Origin: Nakamurella sp. A5-74
GTDB lineage: Bacteria > Actinomycetota > Actinomycetes > Mycobacteriales > Nakamurellaceae
Length of the DNA stretch: 64,000 bases
Direction: 5' to 3'
NCBI RefSeq assembly: GCF_040438885.1
Contig: NZ_CP159218.1
Span: 620,001-684,000 of the forward strand
The stretch's first letter is position 1, and every line of letters begins with the position of its first letter. The notes under the pieces are model-generated. The model was given only the letters and a program-made list of their open reading frames with translations. It did not search any database and had not been told where the DNA came from. The position numbers were made by a program, and so were the translations under genes. This document shows, piece by piece, positions 15,178 through 41,098 of the stretch.

Positions 15178-16086
15178 ATGACCGATCGGCGATTGATGCT
15201 CGTGCATGCCCACCCGGACGACGAGACCTCCAGCACGGCCGCGACGATGGCCGATGCGATGGCCACCGGGGGCCAGGTCACGCTGGTGACCTGCACCCTG
15301 GGTGAGCGCGGCTCGGTGGTGCTGCCCGAGTTGCTGCACCTGCACCACGAGCAGGACGACGGATTGGGCCCCCACCGGCTCGGTGAGCTGGCGGCCGCGA
15401 TGGGCGCCCTCGGGGTGACCGACTTCGTCCGGCTGGGTGGCGACGGCCGATGGAGCGATTCCGGCATGGTCGACACCGACGAGGGTCTGGCCACGGTCGG
15501 CGACGACGTCCCCGAGAACGCCTTCTGGAACGCCGATCTGCTCGAGGCCGCCACCGAGCTGGTCGCGCTCATCCGCGACCGCCGCCCGCAGGTACTGATC
15601 ACCTACGACGAGAAGGGCGGTTACGGCCATCCCGACCACGTCCAGGCGCACCGGGTCGCGATGTACGCGACCGCACTGGCCGGCGCGCTGACATTCCGGC
15701 CGGATCTCGGTGCTGCCTGGACGATCCAGCGAGTGCTGTGGACGGCGATCCCCGCCAGCGCGATGCGGATGATGATCGCGGGCGCTCGCGCGGCCGGCGA
15801 GGAGTTCTTCGCGGGCTTCGACCTGGAATCGGACGCGATCCCGCCGATGTGCGTGGCGGACGAGTACATCGCGGTCAAGGTGGACGGCAGTGCGTACCGC
15901 AGGCAGCGGTTCGCGGCACTGCGCGCCCACCGCACCCAGATCCCTGCCGACAGCTTCTTCTTCTGGGGGGAGCACGAGGAGAGCGGGGTGGCAGTCTTCG
16001 CGGCCGAATCGTTCACCCTCGCAGCCGGATCCGCCCCGCCGCCGGGCGCCACCGACGTCTTCGCTGGTCTGCTTCCCGAGGGCTGA
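15178..16086 (+). CDS. mshB: N-acetyl-GlcN-inositol deacetylase (mycothiol biosynthesis)
   Basis: This 302-residue zinc deacetylase removes acetate from GlcNAc-Ins in the second enzymatic step of mycothiol synthesis. It has the metal-binding AHPDDE motif (about 11-16) and HPDH (about 152-155), and its length is close to M. tuberculosis MshB. Mycothiol conjugate amidase (Mca) is a paralogue with the same motifs; the MshB call rests on length and on TYDEKGGYGHPDH. It implies an actinobacterial host that uses mycothiol. It ends 13 bases before the convergent glycosyltransferase operon. Confidence 0.88.
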   Translation: MTDRRLMLVHAHPDDETSSTAATMADAMATGGQVTLVTCTLGERGSVVLPELLHLHHEQDDGLGPHRLGELAAAMGALGVTDFVRLGGDGRWSDSGMVDTDEGLATVGDDVPENAFWNADLLEAATELVALIRDRRPQVLITYDEKGGYGHPDHVQAHRVAMYATALAGALTFRPDLGAAWTIQRVLWTAIPASAMRMMIAGARAAGEEFFAGFDLESDAIPPMCVADEYIAVKVDGSAYRRQRFAALRAHRTQIPADSFFFWGEHEESGVAVFAAESFTLAAGSAPPPGATDVFAGLLPEG

Positions 16087-16099
16087 GGGCAGCAGAGGG

Positions 16100-16867
16100 T
16101 CAGGATGCCGTGCCGCTGGACGCTCCCAGCCGTTGGTCCTCATGCAACGAACGGAGCAGGTCGGCCAGTCCGCCCGGAGCCCGGCCGCGCAGCCGGGACG
16201 AGGTCTGGACAACGGGCCGCAGCACCGGAACCACCCGGAACGATGCGGCACGCAGATCGTTCAGCAGTGCGTGTTCCTCGCCGTGCTCGACCGCGCGGAA
16301 TCCGCCGACCGCGCGGTAGGCGGCCATCCGGACGGCGAGGTTGGCCGCATAGACGTGGCGATGACCGTCACTCGTCATGCCGGCGGCGACGATCGCCCGG
16401 TAGCGCTGCAAGGCCTCCTGGCTGCCGTGCCAGCCGACCAGCTCGACGGGTCCGGCGAGCGCATCGGCTCCGCGACTCGCGCCGATCCGCATCAGGTCGG
16501 TCACCCAGTTCTCCGGGACGATCGAGTCGGCGTCGGTGCTCAGCACCCAGTCCGTCGACGGGCCGGGTAGTGCTGCGAGGCGGTCGATCAACCGGGCGCG
16601 GACAGCGCCCACCCTGGACGGGATCTCGTCTCGGGCGACCACCCCGGTGACGTGGTCCGGCAGCGTCGAGAACTCCAGCACGGCGGACGCCCGCGCCGCG
16701 GTCCGGTCCGTGCACCGATGTGCCGCCACGCCGATGGTCGCGGAGCGGATCTGCCCCGCGTCGAGTGCGACCCGGACAGCGGCGAGCACCGCGCGAACAC
16801 ACGTCACGACGCTGCTCTGCTCGTCGTGCGCCGGCACGGCCACCAGGATCGCGGGTGGCGCGGTCAC
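16100..16867 (-). CDS. Family 2 glycosyltransferase, last gene of the PIG-L operon
   Basis: This 255-residue protein is a GT-A-fold glycosyltransferase. It begins ILVAVPAHDEQ and has the nucleotide/metal motif LSTDADSIVPENW (about 110-122). AGPVELVGW and AYRAVGGF (about 180-187) are typical of polyprenol- or acceptor-facing GT2 enzymes. No membrane helix is evident, so it is probably cytosolic. Its GTG start overlaps the stop of the acyl-CoA dehydrogenase-like gene by 4 bases (GTGA), which implies translational coupling. Donor and acceptor sugars are unknown. Its 3' end faces mshB. Confidence 0.85.
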   Translation of the reverse strand: MTAPPAILVAVPAHDEQSSVVTCVRAVLAAVRVALDAGQIRSATIGVAAHRCTDRTAARASAVLEFSTLPDHVTGVVARDEIPSRVGAVRARLIDRLAALPGPSTDWVLSTDADSIVPENWVTDLMRIGASRGADALAGPVELVGWHGSQEALQRYRAIVAAGMTSDGHRHVYAANLAVRMAAYRAVGGFRAVEHGEEHALLNDLRAASFRVVPVLRPVVQTSSRLRGRAPGGLADLLRSLHEDQRLGASSGTAS

Positions 16868-17835
16868 CCCGCCACGGCCTGTCGGGCCAGGGCGAACAGG
16901 TCGCGATCGGCATGTTGTTGGCGCACATAGAGATCGAGATCTGCGATGACCCCGGAGAGCTGGGGGACGTGCGCGGCACCGGCCGGGCCGGCGCAGTCCC
17001 TGGCGGTCTGCAGCGCGCGTCTGACCGCAGCGGCGATACCGGCCCGGGTGAAGGTGCACAAGGCGGCGGTCTCGTCGGGTGTCAGCTCGGCCGGACCGTC
17101 GAGAGCGACGGCGGCACGGTCCAGCAGTGCGCAGCAGGTGTCGACCTCCAGGGCGATAGCGCCGATCCGCAGCGACTGAACCTGATCGAGCGTGCCGGCG
17201 GACAGCCAGCCGACGAGCACGTCCAGCACGGCCTGCGCGCCGCCGGTCCACACTGCGGCGACGCCGACACCGCCGGGGAGGAAAGCCGGCCGCTCGAGAT
17301 AGAAGCCAGGTCCGCCGACCACGGCGTCGGCCGGGACCGGCTCGGCGTCCAGTTGCAGGGTGAAGGAACGACTGACCGACATGGCGTCGCTGCACCACGA
17401 GTGGTGGTCGTACTTCCAGTGCTCTACCGGTGCGTCCACGAGCAGGCTCTGCGGAGGCTCCGTGTCGGTGACGACGGTGACCAGCGACCGGTCGATCACC
17501 CCGCACCCGGACGCGAACGGCATGGATCCGGAGAGCACCAGTGCGCCGTCGTTCTCGTCCGCTGGGCTTGCCGTCACCGCGGCGCCGCGGGAGCGAGAGG
17601 CCCAGACCCCGTACAGTGCACCAGGTTTTGGTACCCGGCCGGCCTGCTGCAGGATCCGCAGAGCGTCGACGTGGCCCTCGGCAAGTCGGCCGCCCGGAAC
17701 GCTGCGTCGTCCCAGCTTCCGCAGCTCGACGAACAGGTCGGTCCAGCTCAATTCCGCCCAGGCGATCGGACCGACCAACTGCCGGACCATCTCAGCAATA
17801 CCGGTGGTGTCGTCGGCGCGGGGTGGAGCGATCAA
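16864..17835 (-). CDS. Short acyl-CoA dehydrogenase-like protein
   Basis: This 323-residue protein resembles acyl-CoA dehydrogenases but is shorter than the usual 380. Seen are an LSGSMPFASGCGVIDRSLV beta-domain segment (about 115-133), a flavin-facing middle domain, and a helical C-terminal bundle with many Ala, ending LFALARQAVAG. I cannot point to the catalytic Glu. The TTG at 17835 is preferred because it gives a 4-base TTGA overlap with the methyltransferase stop, matching the other junctions; the first in-frame ATG would drop about 24 residues. It may oxidise an acyl chain or a sugar-linked carbon in the pathway of its neighbours. Confidence 0.75.
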   Translation of the reverse strand: MIAPPRADDTTGIAEMVRQLVGPIAWAELSWTDLFVELRKLGRRSVPGGRLAEGHVDALRILQQAGRVPKPGALYGVWASRSRGAAVTASPADENDGALVLSGSMPFASGCGVIDRSLVTVVTDTEPPQSLLVDAPVEHWKYDHHSWCSDAMSVSRSFTLQLDAEPVPADAVVGGPGFYLERPAFLPGGVGVAAVWTGGAQAVLDVLVGWLSAGTLDQVQSLRIGAIALEVDTCCALLDRAAVALDGPAELTPDETAALCTFTRAGIAAAVRRALQTARDCAGPAGAAHVPQLSGVIADLDLYVRQQHADRDLFALARQAVAG

Positions 17836-18437
17836 CGGGCACGCACCCAGGAACGCAGCACGAAATCGGCATCGTCGTGACGGACGGCGAGCGCCCACCC
17901 GTCCTCGGTGAGTGCCGCGTCGAGCAGTCCGGCGGCGTGCTCGCCGGACCGCGGAGCATCATGCGGATGGTGTCGCCAGTTCACCAGGACGACCTCGCTC
18001 CCGTCCGGTGTCGCCGACCCGAGCAGGGTTGCCGGCAGCGCGAGCAGATCGAGCGTCGGCAGGTAGTAGACGACCTCGGACAGGACGATCAGGTCGAACT
18101 CGTGGTTCCCCAACGACTCCGGCAATCCGTGCACCTGCGTCGTCACCTCGGCCCGGCCGTCGTCGGGTTCCGAAGCCAGGCGCGCCGCGGTCAACTCGAC
18201 GGCGCGGGGCGACAGGTCCGAGGCGACCAGGGAGTCGCACCGATCCGCGAGGGAGCGGGTCAGATGCCCTGTGCCGCAAGCGGTATCCCAGATCCGTTGG
18301 TATCGTTGCTGGGTGAGGGAGGCAACCGTGATGTCGATCTTTCGCTGCTCGTACCAGCTGGAGCCGACGTCGAACGGATCGTCATCGGCCCGGTAGGCGG
18401 CATCGAAGTCAGGACGGGACGGGTGCGCGGCGGTCAC
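17832..18437 (-). CDS. NodS-like SAM-dependent methyltransferase
   Basis: This 201-residue class I methyltransferase has the NodS-type N-terminus DAAYRADDDPFDVGSSWYE and KIDITVASL, then the SAM-binding motif WDTACGTGHLT (about 50-60) and an acidic strand end VASDLSP. A catalytic-face segment FDLIVLSEVVYYL follows. In rhizobia NodS N-methylates the deacetylated glucosamine of Nod factors; here the upstream gene is itself a deacetylase, which suits N-methylation of a freshly made amine. The GTG start (18437) overlaps the PIG-L stop by 4 bases. Confidence 0.85.
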   Translation of the reverse strand: MTAAHPSRPDFDAAYRADDDPFDVGSSWYEQRKIDITVASLTQQRYQRIWDTACGTGHLTRSLADRCDSLVASDLSPRAVELTAARLASEPDDGRAEVTTQVHGLPESLGNHEFDLIVLSEVVYYLPTLDLLALPATLLGSATPDGSEVVLVNWRHHPHDAPRSGEHAAGLLDAALTEDGWALAVRHDDADFVLRSWVRAR

Positions 18438-19291
18438 AGAAAGTCTCCACTGTCATGGGGTCGGACACTGTCATGGGGTCGGACACTGTCATCGGGTCGG
18501 ACGCTGTCATGGGGTCGGAACGCAAATGCTCGTCGGTGGTGCTCCAGCATCGAGTCCGGAACCACCGGGCCGAGACCTGCGAAGAAGGACGAGTACTGGC
18601 TGGGATAGCAGCGGATCGCGGCCTCGCGTCGGTCTTCGTCCACGGGGTCCGCCGGCAACAGGGACAACCGGGCGGACGTCGCCTCGTCCCGGGGCGGATG
18701 CTTCCAGAAGGATGCCCAGACGGGGTATTCGACGAGGGGGATCGAGTGCCGTGCGGCAACCTCGGCTGCGGCCGCTCCCACCGCGGCGTGGTCCGGGTGC
18801 GGGTCCGATGCCCAGGGAGCTGCGAGCAGCACCGGCCGGCACCTGGACACCGCGCAGTCGAGCTCCACGACGACCCGGTAGGGGAAGTCTGCCAGCGCCG
18901 AGTCGGGGAGATCCCGACACCGGGTCGACCTGACACCCAACGCCGCGCCCGCGCGGGTGAATTCGTCACGGCGGAGATTGCCGATCGCCGCACGGGTGAC
19001 CGTGGGCAGGGGGAATGGGGAGCTTCGGGTGATCGCGTCCAGACAGGCCTCGCCGGCAGTGAGGGTGAGGAGGTCGACCGGTCCGGATGTGCGGGCCCAC
19101 CGCGCGATCGACCTGCCGAAGCCGATCGTCTCGTCGTCCGGATGGGCGGAGAGGACCAGCAGCGGTCCGTCCCCGACCGAAGCCGGATCCCAGACGGGCG
19201 CGCCGGTCAACGCGTGCGCCCAGACGGCGGGCGACAAGCCGTCCGGGGTCACGGCAACTACGGGCGCTGTACCCACTGCGTCGGCTGACAT
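18434..19291 (-). CDS. PIG-L family N-acetyl-sugar deacetylase, first gene of the operon
   Basis: This 285-residue LmbE/PIG-L protein carries the zinc motif SAHPDDE (about 50-56) and DPHPDHAAVG (about 165-174), so it should remove an N-acetyl group from a glucosamine-like substrate. It is distinct from MshB in length and sequence. The C-terminus contains four copies of a six-residue repeat (RPHDSV/RPDDSV) encoded by tandem 18-bp DNA units, outside the catalytic fold. The ATG at 19291 follows GGGAG at 5 bases; a GTG 12 bases earlier is possible. It starts an operon of four genes with 4-base overlaps. Confidence 0.88.
   Translation of the reverse strand: MSADAVGTAPVVAVTPDGLSPAVWAHALTGAPVWDPASVGDGPLLVLSAHPDDETIGFGRSIARWARTSGPVDLLTLTAGEACLDAITRSSPFPLPTVTRAAIGNLRRDEFTRAGAALGVRSTRCRDLPDSALADFPYRVVVELDCAVSRCRPVLLAAPWASDPHPDHAAVGAAAAEVAARHSIPLVEYPVWASFWKHPPRDEATSARLSLLPADPVDEDRREAAIRCYPSQYSSFFAGLGPVVPDSMLEHHRRAFAFRPHDSVRPDDSVRPHDSVRPHDSGDFL
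18451..18519. repeat. Tandem 18-bp repeats in the PIG-L 3' end
   Basis: Nearly four units of an 18-bp word (TGTCATGGGGTCGGACAC on the plus strand) lie in the last 90 bases of the PIG-L gene. The first two units are identical. They encode a hydrophilic Asp/His/Arg tail. Confidence 0.9.
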
Positions 19292-19528
19292 GGCTGCTCC
19301 CACCGGACGGCTCGTTCAAACTTGGATCGCGTGTGACTGACGTGCGACGGAGGGGCTCTGCGCCGCATCTCCGTCGGGCCCGGTTGGCTGTGGACGGCAC
19401 TCCGTTCGTACCCACCCCCGGGCCGATCATGCACCTGGCCGCCGTGCATGCGATCGCCGATGACGGGTACTGGACCGATGACCCGAGTGAACGCCGTCGA
19501 CGCGTTCTCCGCGAAGGAAAGGACCCCC

Positions 19529-39937: not shown

Positions 39938-41098
39938 TCAGGCGGGCCCGAGGAGGTTCGTCGCGACGGTCGAGTGGATCGACTCGGTGTCGGAGGGATG
40001 GAAGATCCCGGCCAACACGTCCCGCTGCAGTCGGGCGAGCTCGGCGGAGTTGCGGTAGCCGCCTCCACCGCTGACCCTGGCAGCACGATCCACCGCGCGG
40101 CGGGCCGTCTCCGTGGCGCGGTGTTTCGCGCCGGTGAGGTAGCGGAACCAGTCGGCGCCGTGATCGCGCACCGCGTCGACGTCGGCGGCCAGCGTCTCCA
40201 ACTCCGGCCGCAGCGCGTCCACCGACAGCGCGATGTCGGCGACCTGCCAACGGATGTCCGGATCGGCGGCGTAGGCAGCCCCGGTGCGCAGGCTCGTGCG
40301 CCGGTGCGTCGCCTCGACGGCCAGCTCCAGCGCCCGGTCGGCGATGCCGGCGTACACCGCGGCGATCGACAGCAGGAAGGTCGCGAAGATCCCGAACACG
40401 AACGGGTCGGCGTTCGGCCCGACCGGCAGGAACCGGCTCACCCGGTTCGCGGCGACGACAGCGTTGTCCAGCACGGTCGTGTGGCTCTGGGTCGCGCGCA
40501 TGCCGAGGGTGTCCCAGTCCTCCAGGGACCGCCAGCCGGGGGTGTCCCTGGTGAGGAACCCGTGCACCAGGCGCGGTCCGTCCGGTCCGTCCTGCTGCTT
40601 GCCGAAGATTCCCAGCCGGGTCCAGGCGGGGGAGAGCGAGGTGAAGATCTTGGTGCCGGTGAAGGAGAACCCGCCGTCGTCCGCCGCTGTGGCAGTGGTC
40701 AGTGAGTCCCAGAGCACCAGGTCGTTACCGGGTTCGCTGTTGCCGAAGGCGAACAGTTCTCCCGCGTCAGCCTCGTCCGACACCCACTGCAACGAGTGGT
40801 CACCGCGGGCCGCGAGCACTCTGGCGACGCCGACCCAGACGAGGTGCATGTTGAGGCCCAGCGCGGTCGCAGGTGCGTGGGCGGCCAGCAGGCGTTGGTC
40901 GCGCACCACCTGCAGCAACGGCCGCGGTCGCAGGTAGCCGGCGGCTCGCAGCTCGTCGAGATCCTCGGTGAAGAAGCTGTTCTCCCGGTCGTAGCGCTCG
41001 GCGCGGCCGCGAATGCGTTCCAGGAGTGTGGGTTCTGAGGCCCCGCCGAGTGCCGGCGAGGTGGCGAGGACGGATTCCGGGATGGGCTGGCTCACCAC
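39938..41098 (-). CDS. Acyl-CoA dehydrogenase family protein
   Basis: This 386-residue protein resembles acyl-CoA dehydrogenase or related flavin monooxygenases. It has RYDRENSFFTEDLDELRAAG at the N-terminus, FTGTKIFTSLSP and WDTLGMRATQSHTTVLDN in the beta domain (about 150-225), a helical C-terminal domain (from about 245) and VSGGGGYRNSAELARLQRDV. After AAGYL the usual segment with a PTELGGxG-type flavin contact seems to be missing (it reads LRPRPLLQVVRDQ), so about 10 residues may be deleted. Start choice among adjacent GTG codons is open. No neighbour explains its substrate. Confidence 0.85.
   Translation of the reverse strand: MVSQPIPESVLATSPALGGASEPTLLERIRGRAERYDRENSFFTEDLDELRAAGYLRPRPLLQVVRDQRLLAAHAPATALGLNMHLVWVGVARVLAARGDHSLQWVSDEADAGELFAFGNSEPGNDLVLWDSLTTATAADDGGFSFTGTKIFTSLSPAWTRLGIFGKQQDGPDGPRLVHGFLTRDTPGWRSLEDWDTLGMRATQSHTTVLDNAVVAANRVSRFLPVGPNADPFVFGIFATFLLSIAAVYAGIADRALELAVEATHRRTSLRTGAAYAADPDIRWQVADIALSVDALRPELETLAADVDAVRDHGADWFRYLTGAKHRATETARRAVDRAARVSGGGGYRNSAELARLQRDVLAGIFHPSDTESIHSTVATNLLGPA

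Follow-up and report, generated by a model that had tools for sequence, protein, structure and literature searches.

A conserved four-gene cluster of Nakamurella sp. A5-74 and a predicted amino-sugar tailoring pathway with Nod factor-like logic

Gene content of the operon

The minus strand of a 64,000-nucleotide stretch of Nakamurella sp. A5-74 (contig NZ_CP159218.1, positions 620,001 to 684,000; hereafter the window) carries a four-gene operon between window positions 16100 and 19291. The genes encode a PIG-L family deacetylase, a NodS-like S-adenosylmethionine (SAM)-dependent methyltransferase, a flavoprotein with the fold of the acyl-coenzyme A (acyl-CoA) dehydrogenases (ACADs) and a GT2-like glycosyltransferase. 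As an earlier note on this DNA had described, they share one direction, and every junction is a 4-base stop/start overlap. The gene set recurs across phyla and represents a real, conserved pathway with a logic resembling that of Nod factor synthesis, undescribed as far as the open-licence literature was searched; no study of this gene cluster was found there.

The first gene (18434..19291) encodes a 285-residue protein that belongs to the PIG-L (CE14) family, scoring 75.8 bits against PF02585 (cut-off 28.2) and carrying the motif AHPDDE and a second motif, DPHPDH, in its translation and alignment. HP is followed by DD in 28 of 34 aligned PIG-L rows, by GD in 4 and by HD in 1; the pattern missed one row. 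Among solved structures, the family profile comes closest to TT1542, diacetylchitobiose deacetylases and BshB1, which points towards glycosides of the N-acetylglucosamine (GlcNAc) type. Superfamily and metal-binding motif are shared with the diacetylchitobiose deacetylases, MshB and BshB, and the first of these rank with TT1542 at the top of the profile search. In contrast, the window protein stays far below the NCBIfam equivalog cut-offs of all the thiol enzymes: MshB (38.6 of 224 bits), Mca (21.2 of 277), BshB1 (47.4 of 182.5) and BshB2 (40 of 195). The genuine mycothiol deacetylase gene, mshB, lies at 15178-16086, convergent with the operon and 13 bases from its end; two PIG-L genes with different roles stand side by side here. 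The 3' end of the operon PIG-L gene holds an in-frame 18-base tandem repeat in four copies (18448-18519), which encodes a repeated RPHDSV-like C-terminal tail immediately ahead of the methyltransferase start.

The methyltransferase (17832..18437, 201 residues) begins with a GTG within the PIG-L stop and scores 40.4 bits against the Pfam NodS profile PF05401 (cut-off 24), with an intact SAM motif. Its family profile retrieves 4isc (2e-67), then NodS (2.1e-28), followed by phospho(methyl)ethanolamine N-methyltransferases from 8.8e-15 onward, and the NodS model recognises 33 of the 34 members at E ≤ 1e-8. By profile comparison, NodS is thus the closest characterised relative of the family, and the kinship proposed in the earlier note holds. 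Furthermore, the 164-residue chain of 4ISC, which we take to come from a Pseudomonas, aligns end to end with a Pseudomonas cluster member at 247 bits, so that the family already has a solved structure; the entry is named only 'Methyltransferase', with no function in its name. In nine of 115 adjacent pairs, a set that contains a few places twice, PIG-L and methyltransferase are fused in one open frame. Six of these fusions occur in the window's own genus, and together they support a shared substrate. N-methylation of the freed amine is likely, judged from homology.

The third gene (16864..17835, TTG start) encodes the 323-residue ACAD-fold flavoprotein. The final gene (16100..16867) encodes a glycosyltransferase of 255 residues that falls within GT2, with a GT-A fold and a DxD-type motif; membrane helices are predicted to be absent from it.

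Linkage across bacteria and exchange of the deacetylase

A protein search of 61 genomes, covering the window's own genome, its genus and its order, found the ACAD family in 33 at E ≤ 1e-15, including 13 of the 17 genomes of the genus. Weaker matches in that search resemble ordinary ACADs. In short loci around twenty of the hits, PIG-L and methyltransferase usually adjoin the ACAD gene. The family is present in 31 of 296 evenly drawn Actinomycetota genomes (E ≤ 1e-20), about a tenth, and in 23 of 299 evenly drawn Pseudomonadota genomes (E ≤ 1e-22), or 8%, with centre genomes counted and at most seven candidates scored per genome.

By family profiles, a locus was counted as linked when all four genes lay within 3.5 kb of the ACAD gene and on the same strand; the samples were tallied separately. 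All four genes are linked in 57 of 80 loci from the genome_contigs scan, whose loci are the 80 best among at least 548 relatives and are biased towards the 13 seed sequences of the narrower ACAD alignment used. The same holds for 14 of 22 loci in the evenly drawn Pseudomonadota sample, for 12 of 15 Actinomycetota loci (8/10 and 4/5 in two samples) and for five of nine plasmid loci (Sphingomonas, Legionella lytica, Sulfitobacter, Pandoraea and Kitasatospora). On the remaining plasmids, Nostoc has the glycosyltransferase on the opposite strand, Deinococcus lacks it, Cupriavidus has PIG-L apart and Methylobacterium has the ACAD gene alone. The four families are thus kept together in relatives, the outcome on which the earlier note had staked its reading. 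Summed over 126 loci, PIG-L lies near the ACAD gene on the same strand in 110, the methyltransferase in 110 and the glycosyltransferase in 93. Some misses fall at the end of a contig or locus (L057, L062 and L080 among them), and four places are present as two loci each (L008/L139, L009/L140, L015/L171 and L018/L170), with L095/L147 possibly a fifth. Gene order varies among groups, so the linkage has been kept despite rearrangement.

The most telling variant comes from ten Actinomycetota loci (L129-L138), counted apart from the linkage samples, in which no PIG-L gene was found in the stretch near the ACAD gene. More specifically, all ten have a CE4 (NodB-type) polysaccharide deacetylase ahead of the ACAD gene (PF01522, 84 bits in L133), with the motifs TFDDG and HxxxH that place it in CE4. 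Nine belong to family f32 and one to f23, and they come from ten of the 17 such genomes found; of the 31 Actinomycetota genomes, 23 loci besides the window were examined, and the other seven genomes are all of f32. The same queries found no CE4 gene in the other loci (L008-L128, L139, L140 and L146-L173). Two unrelated folds that have only de-N-acylation in common fill one slot, which is strong evidence for a deacetylation step. Removal of an N-acetyl group from a sugar, as previously proposed for this operon, is very probably a real step of the pathway, judged from this exchange of non-homologous enzymes.

The CE4-type operons also encode, in ten of ten, a Pyr_redox_2 oxidoreductase (an FAD/NAD(P)H reductase, FAD being flavin adenine dinucleotide) between methyltransferase and glycosyltransferase; the L130 contig ends before the latter. 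Among the other loci listed above, a relative of this reductase was found in L089 only, on the opposite strand. There, in a Mycobacterium metagenome-assembled genome (L089:8951-10081), it is 44% identical and adjoins the ACAD gene, a second hint of a redox partner.

Several loci depart from the common arrangement. In 12 of 16 Pseudomonas loci a second, strongly scoring PIG-L gene follows the cluster after the glycosyltransferase, and in all four that were aligned (L083:11152-11925, L086:11158-11931, L103:11098-11874 and L110:11040-11810) HPGDE replaces HPDDE. We take this change to be the loss of the catalytic aspartate, and the protein is possibly a pseudo-deacetylase retained next to the active PIG-L. 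Four Mycobacterium loci have the ACAD gene alone (L055, L082, L099 and L107) and four others only ACAD and PIG-L (L054, L063, L064 and L087); the cluster seems to be eroding in these eight, with the ACAD gene retained longest. On a Deinococcus radiodurans plasmid (L033:5546-7885), the ACAD domain forms the C-terminal part of a 779-residue protein whose first ~400 residues match no Pfam family. A variant block without PIG-L (L158:2775-8791) has methyltransferase and ACAD genes preceded by three others, encoding a sucrose-phosphate-synthase/phosphatase-like protein, a 392-residue protein with no Pfam match and a different GT2 enzyme. Finally, in L127 (7533-9782) the gene directly before that of the methyltransferase, in the same direction, encodes a protein with DNA photolyase domains.

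The ACAD-fold flavoprotein

The third protein of the operon has the ACAD-superfamily fold, and the C-terminal catalytic glutamate (Glu; the YEGT position) is missing throughout its family, in 0 of 30 and 0 of 54 aligned rows, while 17 of 29 comparators have it. In the 54-row alignment the column holds S in 37 rows, H in 16 and Q in one; the window protein has Q. The first seven solved relatives of the family profile comprise two entries named 'acyl-CoA dehydrogenase type 2 domain protein', four TdsC/DszC and one methanesulfinate monooxygenase (MsuC). Further down follow dehydrogenases, a nitrososynthase and DnmZ; 3m9v/4kcf is presumably the amino-sugar enzyme KijD3. Of the 54 members, 28 match the NCBIfam model SfnB and four match DszC; at that threshold no NCBIfam model matches the window protein. 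The family forms a single clade in a 59-row tree, with support of 100/99.

The group D flavin monooxygenases (DszC, MsuC and the amino-sugar nitrososynthases) resemble the operon protein in fold, where dehydrogenases match equally well, in best profile matches and in the lack of the catalytic Glu. They differ in length (roughly 390-450 residues, against 323), the operon family forms its own separate clade, and the window holds no dedicated reductase. The parts of PMC6165268 that treat group D enzymes describe the ACAD-type domain as common to them, N-hydroxylation as possible and a reductase as needed, and the abstract of PMC7347517 reports amino sugars that are N-hydroxylated by flavin enzymes. 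Judged from these comparisons, the protein is unlikely to be an acyl-CoA dehydrogenase of the ordinary kind. The same comparisons point weakly to a possible flavin monooxygenase, which would act on an amino sugar or on the sugar nitrogen. Of the earlier description as an acyl-CoA dehydrogenase-like enzyme, the fold stands and the usual dehydrogenase role is doubtful, given the missing C-terminal Glu in the 54 and 30 rows. The 'acyl-CoA dehydrogenase' labels in such clusters probably misstate the reaction.

The window's minus strand carries a second ACAD-superfamily gene outside the operon (40010-40372; L181), and its product also lacks the catalytic Glu in the alignment. A phage origin of the operon gene was considered and dropped, as the phage collection searched gave no match.

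Genomic context, proposed pathway and alternatives

Neighbours of the cluster, called with a simple open reading frame (ORF) picker, include trehalose/glucan, catalase, Dps-like, DUF892 and DUF2383 genes. Upstream on the cluster's strand, the 16 Pseudomonas loci carry malQ-like (14), treY-like (14) and glgX-like (15) genes, names assigned from Pfam domains and order. In P. syringae, the treY/Z operon is described as PSPTO3125-3130, with glgX last. Among 138 neighbours of fewer than 1000 residues in 21 of the 22 Pseudomonadota loci (all but L167), GT4 types lead, followed by DUF892 (4), alpha-amylase (4), GT20 (3), DUF2383 (3), PAS_9 (3), catalase (2) and manganese catalase (2). In the 15 Actinomycetota loci, sigma-70 domains are the most frequent (up to 4), SpoIIE and Asp23 occur twice each, and the Legionella lytica locus has a trehalose-phosphatase and a GH65 protein. 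Several of these families mark stress regulons, and the tallies, taken without matched control genes, are suggestive of a stress association. In the window, a GH15-type protein is encoded near the operon, and the divergent intergenic region between the operon and a Dps-like gene (19292..19528, from the sequence and the ORF list) is a probable promoter region. Here the Dps-like start was set at ATG 19529; the longest ORF would begin at 19448. Stress sigma-factor motifs were uninformative: one weak SigB-like pattern is the sole such match in the window, and an EcfG-like pattern occurs in two of 31 loci.

We propose that the cluster encodes a widely shared sugar-tailoring pathway, with a probability of roughly 0.55 for the whole scheme. 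In step 1, the GT2-like enzyme would transfer an N-acetylamino sugar of the GlcNAc type onto a small acceptor. The PIG-L enzyme would then strip the N-acetyl group (step 2), the NodS-like enzyme would methylate the freed amine (step 3), and the ACAD-fold flavoprotein, drawing electrons from a flavin or NAD(P)H reductase of the cell, would oxidise the sugar or the nitrogen on it (step 4). The product would probably serve stress survival. Computation established the genes, their linkage in several phyla, the intact motifs of PIG-L, methyltransferase and glycosyltransferase, the absent ACAD Glu, the exchange of PIG-L for CE4 and the fusions. Sugar, acceptor, step order, N-methylation, step-4 chemistry and role are what we infer; their model is the nodC-nodB-nodS segment of Nod factor biosynthesis. 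In both systems a GT2 enzyme stands with a GlcNAc deacetylase and an N-methyltransferase of the NodS type, and ten relatives of the operon even have a NodB-type CE4 deacetylase. The operon differs from that segment in that its glycosyltransferase is short and predicted to be soluble, in that most operons have PIG-L instead of CE4, and in that a redox enzyme is added.

A number of results weigh against this scheme. The window methyltransferase lies far below the NCBIfam NodS equivalog cut-off (50.8 of 300 bits), a further difference from the nod genes, and outside the CE4 type a glycosyltransferase is absent near the ACAD gene on its strand in 33 of 126 loci (one has it on the opposite strand). 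With regard to step 4, the window protein has a Glu in the stretch YLERPAF, near where, we assume, some dehydrogenases keep their base (the alternative position of the isovaleryl-CoA dehydrogenase type), although Glu is found there in 12 of 84 rows and is not conserved. Pfam matches Acyl-CoA_dh_1, the dehydrogenase C-terminal domain, in seven of 25 members and the type-2 domain Acyl-CoA_dh_2 in two, counts that favour neither function, or slightly the dehydrogenase. Fold comparison ends in a tie between ACADs and monooxygenases, with butyryl-CoA dehydrogenase in the top row. In the 59-row tree, the family joins eight Glu-less enzymes with a weak 94/70, and one DszC-like comparator groups with the dehydrogenases. 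The window operon has no reductase gene.

The dehydrogenase-like results would fit a different fourth step. With the same core, an ordinary FAD dehydrogenase or oxidase could act on a carrier- or CoA-bound acyl group, giving an acylated, lipid-like amino-sugar glycoside, for which the tied fold matches, the Acyl-CoA_dh_1 counts and several dehydrogenases among the solved relatives speak. The C-terminal Glu is missing in every row checked, however, SfnB and DszC are the best single-member NCBIfam matches, and the recurring neighbours listed include no identified acyltransferase, acyl carrier protein or CoA ligase; we consider this reading doubtful. Quite unlikely, too, is that the cluster makes or degrades a compatible solute, with the glycosyltransferase and its partners working on a solute such as trehalose and the methyl and redox steps converting an amino sugar to a charged osmolyte, or with PIG-L starting the breakdown of a cell-wall sugar. 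This would suit the malQ-, treY- and glgX-like genes of Pseudomonas, the Legionella lytica trehalose-phosphatase and GH65 protein, the three GT20 neighbours and the sucrose-phosphate-synthase-like protein of L158, but such neighbours are absent from most Actinomycetota loci, and the window, with its GH15-type protein, has no identified synthesis gene.

The proximity of mshB, 13 bases from the operon end, recalls the small-thiol product that the earlier note had entertained, as a branch of the mycothiol pathway or that of another low-molecular-weight thiol. This is highly improbable and was rejected, since the window PIG-L reaches none of the MshB, Mca, BshB1 and BshB2 cut-offs; moreover, Pseudomonas, Sphingomonas, Legionella and Nostoc, which to our knowledge do not make mycothiol, carry all or most of the cluster. 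With the thiol unsupported and the redox step recast, the earlier interpretation as a whole is partly supported.

What this work adds is the setting among stress genes, the fusions of PIG-L and methyltransferase and, for the CE4-type operons, the redox partner. For the sugar-tailoring pathway, the gene set, the deacetylase swap and the fusions yield testable chemistry predictions for a common metabolite, perhaps one for stress survival. A bolder version, unlikely as a whole, makes this a widespread bacterial metabolite of stress. Its amino sugar would lose the N-acetyl group, gain an N-methyl group and be N-oxygenated (to an N-hydroxy compound, nitrone or amine oxide) by an ACAD-fold enzyme resembling the nitrososynthases; the GT2 enzyme would link that sugar to a small acceptor, for instance trehalose or some other compatible solute. 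We know of N-oxygenated amino-sugar chemistry only from antibiotics; if that version were true, such chemistry would belong to the stress physiology of several phyla.

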